DNA of 20,171 nucleotides from Streptomyces alboflavus. Its GTDB lineage: Bacteria; Actinomycetota; Actinomycetes; Streptomycetales; Streptomycetaceae. Location: NCBI RefSeq assembly GCF_000716675.1, contig NZ_JNXT01000098.1, forward strand, positions 1-20,171, written 5' to 3'. This document shows positions 1,085 to 6,490 of the stretch, one piece after another. The notes beneath the pieces were generated by a model. That model saw nothing but the letters and a program-made list of their open reading frames with translations, made no database searches and was not told the origin of the DNA. Both the position numbers and the translations under genes were made by a program. Position 1 is the first letter of the stretch, and each line of letters starts with the position of its first letter.

Positions 1085-1858
1085 CTATCCCCGCCCCCGC
1101 ATCCCGAACAGCTCCGCCCACTCCTCCACGCCGAGGTCCCTGGGCAGGAGTGCGGCGCTGTGGCCGCCTCGCCGCGCCCACTCCTGGATCCTGTGCCGGG
1201 GCAGGTCGGGAGCCGCTGAGGCAAGGATCTGGGGCAGTCCTCGGCCCCGTCCGGTGAACACCCGGCGTACGAAGTCCTGGTACTCCTGCCGCCGCGCGGA
1301 CGCGACCAGGGGCCGCTCCCGACGGGCGATCGTCATCAGGCCGCCGTCGACGTTGGGGCGCGGCCGGAACGCCGCCGCTGGGACGCGGCCTTCGAGGCCG
1401 AACGCGTACCAGGGCCACCACTGGGCCGTCATCAGCGTCGCCCCGCCGACTCCGGCGCGACGGCGGGCGACCTCCCACTGGACGAGCAGGACGGCGTCGG
1501 TCCAGCCCGTCGAGCGCAGGATGCGGCGCAGCATGGGGGTCGTCTCGTGGAAGGGGAGGTTGCCGACCAGGACGTGTGGCTCCGGCGGGGTGCGATAGCG
1601 CAGGAAGTCGGCGGTGACGATCGTCGTCGAGGGGGCGGTGCGCCGCCGCAGGCGTTCGGCCCGGCGGTGGTCGATCTCGATGCCCGTGAGGCGTCGGCCC
1701 AGGCGTTGCAGGGGGAGCGTCAGAGCCCCGTCCCCGGTGCCGATCTCGACGATCGGGCCGTGGGTGCGGCCCACGAGGTCGACGAACGTGCCGATGGTGG
1801 AGCGGTCGGTGAGGAAGTTCTGGCCGAACTCATGGCGGCCATGGTGGTGCGTACGCAC
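1085..1858 (-). CDS. erm: Erm-family 23S rRNA (adenine-N6)-methyltransferase
   Basis: A 257-residue SAM-dependent rRNA methyltransferase of the Erm/KsgA family. By family it methylates A2058 of 23S rRNA and protects against macrolides, lincosamides and streptogramin B. Visible motifs are the N-terminal FGQNFL (residues 11-16), SAM motif I EIGTGDGALT (38-47), acidic motif II GIEID (59-63), TADF with Asp84, catalytic motif IV NLPF (100-103), and FRPRPNVD (164-171). The NLPF form and length match the actinomycete Erm branch rather than KsgA. The start is GTG at 1858, with GGAG (1868-1865) six bases upstream. The upstream leader suggests inducible translation. Whether it mono- or dimethylates cannot be told. 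It could be self-resistance of a producer or intrinsic resistance; no antibiotic cluster is in view. Confidence 0.93.
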   Translation of the reverse strand: MRTHHHGRHEFGQNFLTDRSTIGTFVDLVGRTHGPIVEIGTGDGALTLPLQRLGRRLTGIEIDHRRAERLRRRTAPSTTIVTADFLRYRTPPEPHVLVGNLPFHETTPMLRRILRSTGWTDAVLLVQWEVARRRAGVGGATLMTAQWWPWYAFGLEGRVPAAAFRPRPNVDGGLMTIARRERPLVASARRQEYQDFVRRVFTGRGRGLPQILASAAPDLPRHRIQEWARRGGHSAALLPRDLGVEEWAELFGMRGRG

Positions 1859-1860
1859 AG

Positions 1861-1979
1861 GTGTCTCCGCGGCTTCGAGGTAAGCCGGGCAGCACGAAGT
1901 GCCGCTCGGCGCTTACGCGTGGAAGCGGCGGGGCGTTCCAGAGTGGGATGAGGTCGGCCCGCCGCTAGGCGCGGCGGAT
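1861..1979 (-). promoter_or_regulatory. Putative erm translational attenuator
   Basis: Four segments of the erm leader mRNA can pair in two mutually exclusive ways. Segment 1 (1977-1971, CCGCCGC, inside the last codons of the leader ORF) pairs perfectly with segment 2 (1965-1959) around a 5-nt loop. Segment 2 (GCGGCGGG, 1965-1958) also pairs perfectly over 8 bp with segment 3 (1932-1925). Segment 3 (1931-1922) can instead pair with segment 4 (1876-1867) through 4+5 bp with one C-C mismatch, covering two G of the erm GGAG. A strong hairpin (1915-1881) sits inside the 3:4 loop. A ribosome stalled late on the leader would mask segment 1, favour 2:3 and free the GGAG. This matches the known erm attenuation logic; pairing was worked out by eye, without folding energies. 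Confidence 0.65.
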
Positions 1980-2012
1980 CCTCGTGATTGCGGCAGCTGC
2001 GAATGCGCACAT
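1965..2012 (-). CDS. Putative erm leader peptide, 15 residues
   Basis: A short ORF encoding MCAFAAAAITRIRRA ends 106 nt before the erm GTG, in the same transcript direction. It has no Shine-Dalgarno sequence, but a candidate -10 (TACGCT, 2025-2020) ends only 7 nt before its ATG, so its mRNA probably begins at or next to the ATG (leaderless translation). The tail contains R11-I12-R13, matching the known +X+ macrolide-arrest motif (Arg/Lys-X-Arg/Lys) found in several erm leader peptides. Codons 13-14 coincide exactly with attenuator segment 1. Most annotation pipelines would miss it. Function is inferred from position and motif. Confidence 0.65.
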   Translation of the reverse strand: MCAFAAAAITRIRRA

Positions 2013-2019
2013 GGGAGGC

Positions 2020-2059
2020 AGCGTACGGGGCGGCCGGGGCCTATAGGCAAGTGATTTTT
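2020..2059 (-). promoter_or_regulatory. WhiB7-like promoter of the erm leader
   Basis: Reading the minus strand: an AT tract AAAAAT (2059-2054), three bases, a -35-like TTGCCT (2050-2045), a 19-nt spacer, and a -10-like TACGCT (2025-2020). An AT-rich tract about 3 bp before a -35 is the recognised signature of promoters activated by WhiB7/WblC, the actinobacterial antibiotic-response factor that controls erm-type genes. The tract stands out in this very GC-rich region. The 19-nt spacer is slightly long, so exact hexamers are uncertain. Confidence 0.55.
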
Positions 2060-2183: not shown

Positions 2184-2366
2184 TTACTCGTCCTCGTCCT
2201 CGTCGTCCAGGCGCGCGAGCCACGTGGCGAGCCGCTCCACCGGGACCTCGAAGTCCGGGTTGAGGTCCACGAAGGTGCGGAGCTGCTCGGCGAGCCACTC
2301 GAAGGTGACCTCCTCCTCGCCGCGCCGCTTCTCCAGCTCCTCGATGCCACGGTCGGTGAAGTACAA
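2184..2366 (-). CDS. DUF6104-type small acidic protein
   Basis: A 60-residue protein beginning MYFTDRGIEELEKRRGEEE, with a FEWLAEQLRTFVDLNPDFEVPVERLATWLARLD core and the acidic tail DDEDEDE. I recognise it as the small conserved actinobacterial family (DUF6104) often found beside the oxoglutarate dehydrogenase gene; its function is unknown. The start codon is TTG at 2366, supported by AGGAG six to seven bases upstream. Start-codon rules favouring ATG or GTG would shorten or miss it. It lies downstream of kgd on the same strand, separated by a strong hairpin, so it may have its own promoter. Confidence 0.8.
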   Translation of the reverse strand: MYFTDRGIEELEKRRGEEEVTFEWLAEQLRTFVDLNPDFEVPVERLATWLARLDDEDEDE

Positions 2367-2424
2367 CTCTTGCTCCTGGTGCGGGCCGGACCCGGGCCGG
2401 TGGCCGGGCTGCGTTCCGTTTCAT

Positions 2425-2438
2425 CGTACGGCCGTACG
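2425..2438. promoter_or_regulatory. 14-bp perfect palindrome
   Basis: CGTACGGCCGTACG is a perfect 14-bp palindrome 59 bp upstream of the TTG start of the small acidic protein gene. It may be an operator or part of that promoter. No cognate regulator can be named. Confidence 0.4.
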
Positions 2439-2440
2439 CC

Positions 2441-2488
2441 GGTGGGCCCGGTCCCAAGTCCCGTACAGGACGCGGAGCCGGGCCCACC
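2441..2488 (-). terminator. Probable kgd terminator
   Basis: GGTGGGCCCGG (2441-2451) and CCGGGCCCACC (2478-2488) form a perfect 11-bp stem around a 26-nt loop, starting 31 bp past the kgd stop codon. No U tract follows. It likely ends or processes the kgd transcript before the small downstream gene. Confidence 0.6.
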
Positions 2489-2519
2489 CGACGTGCCGAA
2501 CGGCGGTGACCGCCGCGGA

Positions 2520-5500
2520 CTAGGCCTCGAAGACCTCGTTCAGGAGCTGCTCCTGCTCCTGCTCGTGGCGCTTCTTGGAGCCGACCGCCGGGGACGAGCC
2601 GTGCGGCCGCGAGATGCGGCGCAGACGCTCGTCGTGCGGGATGTCGGCGCCGACCGCCAGGTCCAGGTGGTCGATCAGGTTGAGGGCGATGAAGGGCCAC
2701 GCACCCTGGTTCGCCGGCTCCTCCTGGGCCCACAGGTACTTCTCGGCGTTCGGGAACTTGGCGATCTCCGCCTGGAGCTCGGCACCCGGCAGCGGGTACA
2801 GGCGCTCGATGCGGATGATCGCCGTGTCCGTGACGCCGCGCTTCTTCCGCTCGGCCTCCAGCTCGTAGTAGAGCTTGCCGGCGCAGAAGACGACCTTGCG
2901 GACCGCGTTGACGTCCACCGAGTCGTCGCCGATGACCGGGCGGAAGCCGCCCGTCGTGAACTCCTCCGTCTTGGAGGCCGCGGCCTTGAGGCGCAGCATC
3001 CACTTCGGGGTGAAGACCACCAGCGGCTTGTGGTGCGGGTTGTGCACCTGCCACCGCAGGAGGTGGAAGTAGTTCGACGGGAGGGTCGGCATCGCGACCG
3101 TCATGTTGTTCTGGGCGCAGAGCTGCAGGAAGCGCTCCGGGCGGGCCGACGAGTGGTCGGGGCCCTGGCCCTCGTAGCCGTGCGGAAGCAGCAGGGTGAC
3201 GCCGGACGTCTGGCCCCACTTCTGCTCGGCCGACGAGATGAACTCGTCCACGACCGTCTGCGCGCCGTTGACGAAGTCGCCGAACTGCGCCTCCCACATC
3301 ACGAGGGACTCGGGACGCGCGAGGGAGTAGCCGTACTCGAAGCCCATGGCCGCGTACTCGGAGAGCAGCGAGTCGTAGGCGTTGAAGCGGGCCTGGTCCT
3401 CGGAGAGGTACAGCAGCGGCGTGTAGTCGTCGCCCGTGTTGCGGTCGATCAGGACCGCGTGGCGCTGGCCGAACGTGCCGCGGCGGGAGTCCTGGCCCGC
3501 CAGGCGCACCGGGGTGCCCTCCAGGAGGAGGGAGCCGATGGCCAGGGTCTCGCCCATGCCCCAGTCGATCGTGCCGTCCTCGACCATGGCCGCGCGGCGC
3601 TGCAGCTGGGGCAGCAGACGCGGGTGGACGGTGACGTGGTCGGGGATGTTGACCTGGGACTCGGCGATGCGCTTGACGACCTCCTGGGAGATCGCCGTGC
3701 TGACCGCCACCGGGAACTCGGCCTGCGGCTCGGGGACCTCCGCCGGGGCGGGCTGCGAGGTGGCTTCACGGACCTCCGTGAAGACCTTCTCCAGCTGGCC
3801 CTGGTAGTCCTGGAGGGCCTGCTCGGCCTCTTCCAGGGTGATGTCGCCGCGGCCGATCAGGGACTCGGTGTACAGCTTGCGGACCGAGCGCTTCTTGTCG
3901 ATCAGGTCGTACATCAGCGGCTGCGTGAACGCCGGGTTGTCGGACTCGTTGTGTCCGCGGCGGCGGTAGCAGATCAGGTCGATGACGACGTCCTTGTTGA
4001 ACGCCTGGCGGAACTCGAAGGCGAGCCGCGCGACGCGGACGACGGCCTCCGGGTCGTCGCCGTTCACGTGGAAGATCGGCGCTTCGATCATCCGGGCCAC
4101 GTCCGTGGAGTACATCGACGAACGCGACGACTCCGGAGCGGCCGTGAAGCCGACCTGGTTGTTGATGACGACGTGGACCGTGCCGCCGGTGCGGTAGCCC
4201 CGCAGCTGCGACATGTTCAGGGTCTCCGCGACGACACCCTGGCCCGCGAAGGCCGCGTCTCCGTGGAGGGCCACCGGCAGGACCGTGAAGTCCGTGCCGC
4301 CCTTGTTGATGATGTCCTGCTTGGCGCGGGCGATGCCCTCCAGGACCGGGTCGACCGCCTCCAGGTGGGAGGGGTTCGCGGCCAGGGAGACCTTGATCTG
4401 CTCGCCGTCCAGGCCCGTGAAGGTGCCCTCGGCGCCCAGGTGGTACTTGACGTCTCCGGAGCCGTGCATCGACTTCGGGTCGAGGTTGCCCTCGAACTCG
4501 CGGAAGATCTGGGCGTACGACTTGCCCACGATGTTGGCGAGGACGTTCAGGCGGCCGCGGTGGGCCATGCCGATGACGACCTCGTCCAGGCGGGACTCGG
4601 CCGCACTGTCGATGACCGCGTCCAGGAGCGGGATGACGGACTCGCCGCCCTCCAGGGAGAAGCGCTTCTGGCCGACGTACTTCGTCTGCAGGAAGGTCTC
4701 GAAGGCCTCGGCGGCGTTCAGCCGGCGCAGGATGCGCAGCTGCTCCTCGCGCTCCGGCTTGGAGGCGTGCTGGCGCTCGATGCGGTCCTGCAGCCACTTG
4801 CGCTGCTTGGGGTCCTGGATGTGCATGAACTCGACGCCGGTGGTGCGGCAGTACGAGTCGCGCAGGACGCCGAGGACGTCGCGCAGCTTCATCATCGACT
4901 TGCCGGCGAAGCCGCCGACGGCGAACTCGCGCTCCAGGTCCCAGAGCGTCAGGCCGTGCTCGGTGATGTCCAGGTCGGGGTGCTTGCGCTGCTTGTACTC
5001 CAGCGGGTCCGTGTCGGCCATGACGTGGCCGCGGACGCGGTAGGAGTGGATCAGCTCGAAGACCCGGGCGGCCTTGGTGACGTCGTCGTCGTGGCTGGCG
5101 TCGATGTCCTTGAGCCAGCGGACCGGCTCGTAGGGGATGCGCAGGGCCTCGAAGATCTCGTCGAAGAAGCCGTTCTCGCCGAGGAGGAGGTTCGCGACGA
5201 TGCGCAGGAACTCGCCGGACGCCGCACCCTGGATCACGCGGTGGTCGTACGTCGAGGTCAGCGTCATGACCTTGGAGATGCCCAGCTTGTTCAGGGTGTC
5301 CTGGGACGTGCCCTGGAACTCCGCCGGGTAGTCCATCGAGCCGACGCCCATGATGACCGACTGGCCGGGCATCAGACGCGGCACGGAGTGGACGGTGCCG
5401 AGGCCACCGGGGTTGGTCAGGGAGACCGTGACGCCGGTGAAGTCGTCCATGCCGAGCTTGCCGTCGCGGGCGCGCCGGACGATGTCCTCGTAGGCCTGCC

Positions 5501-6332
5501 AGAACTCGAAGAAGTTCAGGGTCTCGGCCTTCTTGATGCCCGCTACAACCAGTTGGCGGTCGCCGTTGGGCTTCACCAGGTCGATGGCGAGGCCGAAGTT
5601 GATGTGCTCCGGCTTGACCAGCGTCGGCTTGCCGTCCTTCTCCACGAAGGAGTAGTTCATCGACGGCATGGCCTTGATGGCCTGCACCATCGCGTACCCG
5701 ATGAGGTGCGTGAAGGAGATCTTCCCGCCGCGGGCACGCTTCAGGTGGTTGTTGATGACGATGCGGTTGTCGAACAGCAGCTTCACCGGGACCGCGCGCA
5801 CGGACGTGGCCGTGGGCACCTCCAGGGAGGCGTTCATGTTCTTCGCCACGGCTGCGGACGGGCCGCGCAGCGGGACGTACTCGGGACCCGCCTTCTCGTC
5901 GGCGTCCGCCGCGGCCTTGGCGGGCTCCGCCTTCGCGGGCGCGGCCTTGGCGGCCGCGGGCTTCGCGGCTGCGGGCTTCGCGGGGGCGGGAGCCGGGGCC
6001 TGCGTCGCCGGAGCGGCCGCGGGCTTCGCTGCGGGAGCGGCCGGGGCTGCGGGCTTCGCGGCGGCCGGGGCGGGGGACGTGGTGGACGCGACCCCCGCGG
6101 CCGCGTCACCCGCCGGCTTGGCCGGTGTGGCGGCGACAGAGGCGCCCACGCCCGGCTTGTAGTCGGCGAAGAAGTCCCACCAGGCACGGTCGACCGAATT
6201 CGGGTCCTGGAGGTACTGCTGATAGATCTCGTCGACGAGCCACTCATTGGGACCGAACGCGGCAGCAGGGTTCTTGCCCTGCGCTTCTTGGTCGGTCGAA
6301 GTGCTCGAGTTACTGGGGGACTGTGGCGACAC
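2520..6332 (-). CDS. kgd: Multifunctional 2-oxoglutarate dehydrogenase E2-E1 fusion (Kgd)
   Basis: A TCA-cycle enzyme joining an E2 succinyltransferase domain and a thiamine-diphosphate E1 in one chain, the actinobacterial KGD/OdhA arrangement. It oxidatively decarboxylates 2-oxoglutarate together with dihydrolipoyl dehydrogenase. From a GTG at 6332 (MSPQSPSN...) it has 1270 residues: an E1o-type N-terminal segment ([16 protein letters not shown]); a long Ala/Pro/Lys linker (about 60-145) with no obvious lipoyl domain; an E2 catalytic domain from about 165 with DHRV near 362; then E1 with AHRGRLN near 589, the ThDP/metal motif from GDDPEA near 756, and [13 protein letters not shown] near 787. 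GAGGG lies 11 nt before this GTG. An in-frame GTG at 6359 would add nine residues but has no ribosome binding site. In relatives an FHA protein (GarA/OdhI) inhibits the E1; no such gene is in this window. Confidence 0.96.
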
Positions 6333-6490
6333 GGCGGCAACCGCCCTCTTCCGCTTCACAAGGTGATGGACAGCGGAAATAAAGGCTACGCCTCCAAGGA
6401 CGCGCAGTGCAGACCGGGCCGGTCATCCGTCGCGTAAGTCACACCGGGAAGCTGGTTTCGGGGCTGTAAATGGCGGGAAACAAGCGAAGT

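Follow-up and report, generated by a model that had tools for sequence, protein, structure and literature searches.

The erm gene in the window, the whole 20,171-nucleotide stretch of Streptomyces alboflavus DNA analyzed here, is probably controlled by a drug-induced translational attenuator, built as a relay of six RNA segments and preceded by a WblC-type promoter that would give a leaderless start. The element belongs to the known +X+ kind of erm attenuators, with putative drug sensing, and the original prediction was partly supported, holding in its essentials and requiring correction in its RNA scheme. As far as the searches show, its actinobacterial reach, the probable leaderless WblC-type start, the six-segment relay, and the reuse of the module before homologues of other resistance genes are new. 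The features of the locus are as follows.

2054..2059, minus strand: WblC/WhiB7-type box AAAAAT, differing at one position from the consensus GAAAWY and separated by 3 bp from the −35 element downstream
2045..2050, minus strand: −35 element TTGCCT, with a 19-bp spacer to the −10 element
2020..2025, minus strand: −10 element TACGCT, whose end lies 7 nt upstream of the leader ATG
1965..2012, minus strand: leader ORF MCAFAAAAITRIRRA with stop codon TAG, read from the sequence; ribosomes presumed to stall at R11-I12-R13, with the P site at Ile12
1971..1977, minus strand: segment A, CCGCCGC (segment 1 of the original prediction), spanning both Arg codons and the final base of the Ile codon before them
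1959..1965, minus strand: segment B, GCGGCGG (segment 2), starting at the last base of the stop codon
1925..1931, minus strand: segment C, CCGCCGC (segment 3), proposed partner B (ON) or D (OFF)
1899..1910, minus strand: segment D, GCCGAGCGGCAC, proposed partner D' (ON) or C (OFF)
1884..1895, minus strand: segment D', GTGCTGCCCGGC, proposed partner D (ON)
1888-1882, minus strand: 3' half of D' plus the next two bases, CCGGCTT, proposed partner E (OFF)
1865..1875, minus strand: segment E, AAGCCGCGGAG (segment 4), with the erm Shine-Dalgarno GGAG at 1868-1865
1085..1858, minus strand: erm, 257 aa, GTG start, from the ORF and NCBIfam

The erm product scored 262 bits against the NCBIfam model Erm23S_rRNA_broad (cutoff, 212), and the best-scoring named Erm models were Erm46, Erm55, and Erm38, each below its own cutoff. 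The genome also contains a second Erm match (L002, contig C44) with 34% identity, possibly RsmA/KsgA. Rfam produced no matches at the gathering score in the whole window. Upstream of erm, the 15-codon ORF ending in R-I-R-R-A was found exactly as predicted on the minus strand (2012-1965), with ATG at 2012, TAG at 1967-1965, and the peptide M-C-A-F-A-A-A-A-I-T-R-I-R-R-A.

Relatives were collected in one scan of genome contigs, from which the best 80 of 112 coding stretches were kept; together with the window, these formed 81 loci spanning Streptomyces, Saccharothrix, Amycolatopsis, Actinomadura, Nocardia, Rhodococcus, Gordonia, Dietzia, Corynebacterium, mycobacteria, and others. Leaders were readable in 79 loci, the two exclusions being L059, where the contig begins at the leader stop, and L067, where a promoter and leader start are present, erm starts ~30 nt after the leader start, and the attenuator is absent. 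The C-terminal arrangement [R/K]-x-[R/K]-x-x-stop occurred in 73 of the 79 leaders, among them that of the window, a putative +X+ leader ORF upstream of erm; the remaining six (L025, L031, L044, L046, L048, and L082) did not have this register. Orthologs were checked for loss of the short ORF and of R-X-R, and both were retained, with the same register in those 73 leaders, as the predicted +X+ leader and its geometry relative to segment 2 had implied. The first basic position was R or K in 75 of 79 leaders, encoded by AGG, CGG, CGC, CGT, CGA, or AAG; codon-column shuffles of this residue gave a mean of 65.5 R/K, and 75 was reached in none of 5,000. The first basic residue is under coding constraint and has been kept despite codon changes. 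AGG served as the first basic codon in 40 of the 79 leaders (1982-1980 in the window) and made up 3 of the 344 Arg codons in four window ORFs.

The register also fixes the position of the stop codon: with x in the P site, the stop starts 12 nt beyond the first base of x. The distance from the P site to the front edge of the ribosome is usually 15 to 16 nt, and because of this distance a stalled ribosome would end at about the stop codon and leave B free, and a terminating ribosome would cover B. This constant spacing in 73 leaders is what a stalling mechanism would need. Leader positions were initially set by a rule involving basic residues, with exceptions placed by hand, a bias that is offset by an automatic layout rule ([RK]x[RK]xx-stop, a start codon 6 to 8 nt after TAnnnT, and GCGG after the stop) applied to the 81 loci and to controls. 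Of the 81 regions preceding erm, 69 had this layout; the controls, comprising 81 reverse complements, two sets of 78 stretches from farther upstream, and 79 downstream stretches, gave no match. The comparative evidence for the layout is far stronger than the single-sequence folding signal, in which the 155-nt leader region alone was modestly more stable than its shuffles (z = −2.06; 7 of 200 shuffles as stable). One architecture is found across many actinobacterial genera, with natural variation sufficient for covariation tests of the pairings.

The promoter layout of the window, AAAAAT-CAC-TTGCCT-19-TACGCT-7-ATG, fits the WblC-type consensus with one mismatch in the box. In the cited passages of PMC7157823, WblC-activated promoters consist of GAAAWY, 3 bp, TKGMNN, a spacer of 16 to 19 bp, and TANNNT, and start sites in the WblC regulon lie mostly 7 or 8 bp after the −10 element. 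A rule for such promoters, allowing a gap of 2 to 4 between box and −35 element and a spacer of 16 to 20, matched 32 of 81 loci with no box mismatch and 54 of 81 with at most one, and matched nothing in four control sets. Of 80 tabulated entries, 63 had exactly 7 nt and 73 had 6 to 8 nt between the −10 element (TAnnnT) and the leader start, where the TAnnnT closest to 7 nt was taken among those 4 to 10 nt upstream of each leader and where L012 (added without measurement), L059, L068, and L078 were entered as "none." The promoter was not found by a plain sigma-70 consensus scan of 1800-2100. Because the −10 element ends 7 nt before the ATG and most start sites in the WblC regulon lie 7 or 8 bp after it, transcription is predicted to start at or beside the leader ATG, and the leader mRNA is probably leaderless. 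The leader is likewise probably under a WblC/WhiB7-type promoter, with presumptive WblC dependence. Two-layer control is suggested, in which WblC would raise the transcript and the leader would decide erm translation; stalling on a leaderless mRNA is a further point raised by the module and is easily testable.

The four complementary segments of the original prediction were present in the window, as CCGCCGC (1977-1971), GCGGCGG (1965-1959), CCGCCGC (1931-1925), and AAGCCGCGGAG (1875-1865, with GGAG). Segment 1 had been equated with the Arg13-Arg14 codons, both of which it contains, along with the last base of the Ile codon. The earlier scheme had no D/D' hairpin (1910-1899 and 1895-1884), no leaderless WblC-type start, and no sharing with homologues of other resistance genes. 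Sixty of the 79 elements were aligned (left out were 11 compact mycobacterial members and L012, L046, L052, L061, L062, L066, L072, and L074), and the cores were near-invariant, with 95.2% of cells paired for A:B and 99.0% for B:C. Column shuffles showed a small excess for B:C (2 of 500 as high) and a chance level for the A:B core (259 of 500), and column-count covariation of the cores was dropped as a test, the cores being too invariant. Because the cores hardly vary, covariation was assessed by partner exchange of flanking and outer stems. Native partners were compared with exchanged partners in 42 elements <80% identical, with 5,000 permutations, a design that does not fully remove shared ancestry.

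Beyond its core, B:C favored native partners (z = −4.2; 1 of 5,000 as low), in agreement with the predicted pairing of segments 2 and 3, and C:D (z = −6.0; 0 of 5,000) and D':E (z = −7.7; 0 of 5,000) did so more strongly. In the Streptomyces-type class (24 loci), the z values were −3.4 for B:C, −3.4 for C:D, and −3.2 for D':E; in the other 18 loci, they were −2.4, −4.6, and −5.1, respectively. The signal for D:D' was weak (z = −2.1; 116 of 5,000), at 0.0 within the Streptomyces-type class and −3.1 in the other loci, and D:D' was rejected as a covarying helix and is claimed only as a stable hairpin. The predicted pairing of segments 1 and 2 held, less firmly, when A:B was taken with its flanks (z = −4.6 in 50 nonredundant erm leaders and −2.3 in seven mycobacterial leaders); its 7-bp core alone did not covary, the short version gave a weak swap signal (z = −2.2), and six exporter-class leaders gave none (z = 0.1). 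The D':E pairing is rebuilt in other letters from genus to genus, as CCGGCUU/AAGCCGCGG in the window, CCGGGC/GCCCGG in L042, and CCGGAU/AUCCGG in L070, with an equivalent, CUCAGAG/CUCUGAG, in the exporter class (L126). Pairings that appear to be mutually exclusive, namely, B:C, C:D, and D':E by partner swap and A:B with its flanks, thus run from the leader to the erm ribosome-binding site, and the partner-swap results point to a chain A-B-C-D-D'-E in which neighbors would compete and GGAG lies in E.

In the proposed mechanism, the OFF state would consist of A:B, C:D, and D':E, and the ON state would consist of B:C and D:D', with the erm Shine-Dalgarno free. Transcription from the WblC/WhiB7-type promoter would begin at or beside the leader ATG, and the leader would be translated from a leaderless mRNA. 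With no drug, ribosomes would reach the stop codon, B would be covered or, after release, paired to A, C would be free for D, and D' would take E and enclose the erm ribosome-binding site. A ribosome with a bound ketolide or macrolide would stall at R11-I12-R13, with Ile12 in the P site and its front edge at about the stop codon. It would then cover A and expose B, allowing B:C to form, D to be released to D', and E with its GGAG to become free for erm translation.

Folding of the RNA had been suggested as a check on the original prediction and, beyond the modest stability signal of the leader region, gave a predicted switch in part of the family. In the lowest-energy fold of the free window RNA, B:C and D:D' were formed and E was bound to codons of the leader, where a ribosome would sit; the OFF state would therefore have to be kinetic. 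Partition functions for a ribosome edge placed at the stall were compared with those for an edge at the stop, and changes in GGAG openness of >0.1 were counted. Openness rose in 17 of 80 loci, fell in 9, and was unchanged in 54, and among 800 shuffles it rose in 8.8% and fell in 12.4%. Stalling opened GGAG in 9 of the 11 compact mycobacterial members and lowered it in none, and the other 69 loci, including the window's class, showed no net switch (8 up and 9 down); for the window itself, openness was 0.40 against 0.31. Equilibrium folding was set aside as proof of the switch, as it fits the mycobacterial members only and in the window's class counts as evidence against. A switch in the window's class, if real, would be kinetic or aided by unmodeled factors.

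The original prediction envisaged an ermC-type switch with four segments. In its OFF state C would be joined to E without an intermediate, and the D:D' hairpin, added here, would stand unchanged inside the loop. The duplex energy of C:E in the window (−15.9 kcal/mol) is indeed stronger than that of D':E (−12.7 kcal/mol), and the 11 compact mycobacterial members, which lack D and D', pair C with E once B is covered, closing the start region wholly or partly; the four-segment switch fits these members. In the window's class, however, the pairing of segments 3 and 4 was not borne out, as C:E had no clear swap signal in the 42 loci (z = −1.4; 454 of 5,000 as low) or in the two subclasses (−1.5 in the Streptomyces-type class and −0.9 in the other loci) and, with 76.4% of cells paired across 60 sequences, showed no compensatory pair. 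For this class the six-segment relay is favored, and direct C:E pairing is unlikely.

Control might also be exerted on transcription, with the OFF hairpins causing premature termination, intrinsic-like or Rho-dependent, that a stalled leader ribosome would prevent. In the cited passages, PMC8546547 reports such attenuation for the Streptomyces gene lmrC, and PMC10727445 describes it for whiB7. Here, however, the last hairpin takes in part of the erm GGAG and is followed directly by the start codon, with no T run, and a scan of 1800-2100 found no intrinsic terminator; attenuation of transcription is judged quite unlikely. The promoter evidence raises another alternative, that WblC/WhiB7 transcription alone induces erm and the leader is a passive remnant; a WblC-type promoter is present in most loci, and WblC raises lrm (erm(O)-type) mRNA in S. 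coelicolor, according to the cited passage of PMC7157823. Transcription alone would not account for a leader register that is fixed, for a first basic residue that is constrained in its coding, or for pairings that covary, and this alternative is improbable.

The best-studied erm attenuators are those of Firmicutes, and older papers on ermSF, ermSV, erm(39), and pikR2 reportedly describe leaders or attenuation. In the cited passages of PMC8298421, telithromycin- and erythromycin-stalled ribosomes on ErmDL were located at R6-L7-R8, the P site holding codon 7, and the RLR motif was critical for telithromycin and dispensable for erythromycin; alternative RNA pairings of the ermC type that expose the erm start are described in the cited part of PMC10219788. 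The window module resembles this ErmDL or "RLR" (+X+) class (ermD and ermC type) in its short R-x-R leader before erm and its alternative pairings. It differs, in a comparison with ermD and ermC by description, in its probable leaderless WblC-type start, its proposed relay of six segments rather than four, and its stop codon at a fixed 12 nt after the first base of x. The leader of L072 (Piscicoccus) has RLR in the register of the window. The Erm(X) leader of corynebacteria, also compared by description, shares an actinobacterial erm, a short leader, and proposed translational attenuation, and the cited passage contains no segment model (PMC3350403). In the cited passage of PMC4128351, erm(37) of Mycobacterium tuberculosis is named as an erm gene that falls outside uORF control.

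A further likeness is to the lmrC, tiaA, and are5sc uORFs of Streptomyces ABC-F resistance genes, for which the cited passages of PMC8546547 and PMC12421871 propose or show attenuation mediated by the ribosome; each of the three genes has a terminator/antiterminator model there, which the tiaA transcriptional reporter did not fit. The are5sc and tiaA uORFs (MLV and MVGDDDISG) are described there as stalling at the start codon, unlike the ABC-F leaders with erm-type architecture found here. The whiB7/wblC uORF, as the source passages present it, is likewise an antibiotic-responsive uORF from the same bacteria and the same stress circuit, in which a rho-independent terminator controls a regulator gene, whereas the window would have a translational relay on the resistance gene itself. 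No description of the actinobacterial module was found in the passages retrieved from the open-licence PMC literature.

A search model (R1) was built from the 60 erm elements, and matches were accepted at E ≤ 0.001, with stricter filters in large samples. The element is uncommon: among 396 genomes sampled across the phylum, R1 under the strict filters matched two, G253 and the genome of the window. Among Streptomyces, 11 of 199 genomes, including that of the window, yielded 12 matches, all of which preceded resistance-gene homologues. Three were before erm (L083, which is the window, L085, and L086), five were before LmrA-like MFS exporters (L087, L088, L090, L092, and L093), and four were before ABC-F genes (L089, L091, L094, and L095). 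NCBIfam was applied to L087, whose exporter best matched LmrA below the curated cutoff, and to L094, which matched a ribosomal-protection ABC-F model and then TlrC/CarA/OleB/SrmB, all below curated cutoffs; the remaining exporter and ABC-F loci were classed by their similar N termini. The window's own genome contained a single element at E values up to 5.

A search for ABC-F genes in 150 Streptomyces genomes produced 30 loci, and all six at ≥62% identity carried the module (three already being R1 matches). The ABC-F leaders MARGIWSQKVRSAR and MSFIAKPWSRR had the erm-type architecture. At 56 to 59% identity, the leaders of four loci (L102 to L105) were of another kind, short and hydrophobic, and directly followed a −10-like box (MQYLFFL, MSYVLYL, MSYVFYI, and MRSFYFL), and at ≤45% identity none of 20 loci were flagged by the module filter. 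When the exporter element was used in a DNA search, 14 of 199 genomes gave matches, and twelve exporter-class leaders were read from them (L126 to L137; MSAASCAAACAAVTRTxR and variants), with none in L138 and L139 and with L140 outside the count. The exporter start was placed for nine of the twelve, and five of these nine were R1 loci. Only 1 of the 12 leaders had +X+ (11 of 12 were without it) and long A:B hairpins were retained in several, and therefore the arrest signal in this class must differ. The LmrA family search was uninformative, with MFS transporters in 21 of 21 genomes and 14 of 14 controls and none over the cutoff.

These occurrences raise, at about even chances, the view that the window element is a copy of a drug-sensing cassette of actinobacteria that can be transplanted between genes. 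It would consist of a WblC-type promoter, a leaderless leader ORF, and a six-segment relay, and evolution would have placed it before at least three unrelated MLS-type resistance genes (erm, the LmrA-like exporter, and the TlrC/CarA-like ABC-F), each with its own tuned leader peptide, among them a possible new arrest motif, [K/R]-P-W. The same architecture with different leader peptides before different resistance homologues offers a natural comparison of peptide versus drug sensed. KPW or RPW stood in place of +X+ in two erm loci (L046 and L048) and two ABC-F loci (L100 and L101), in the contexts TRPWSAV..., SKPWGE, AKPWSRR, and MKPWFRR, and may be a second arrest motif common to the two gene classes.

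The 2-oxoglutarate decarboxylase/dehydrogenase gene, in the region 2203-6359 of the window, occurred upstream of erm (≤3 kb) only in the window and in L003 to L009 among the 81 loci, and the wider module is therefore independent of this genomic place. A small ORF (2370-2203) between the erm region and this gene had no Pfam or NCBIfam match. A tandem promoter-plus-leader pair was observed in L031, about 480 to 100 nt upstream of erm, with the first leader ending in ARTRRP and the second in TELRRF, without +X+. In the window, a tandem array of five copies of a 20-bp unit (2079-2177; 78% matches) adjoins the promoter on its upstream side.
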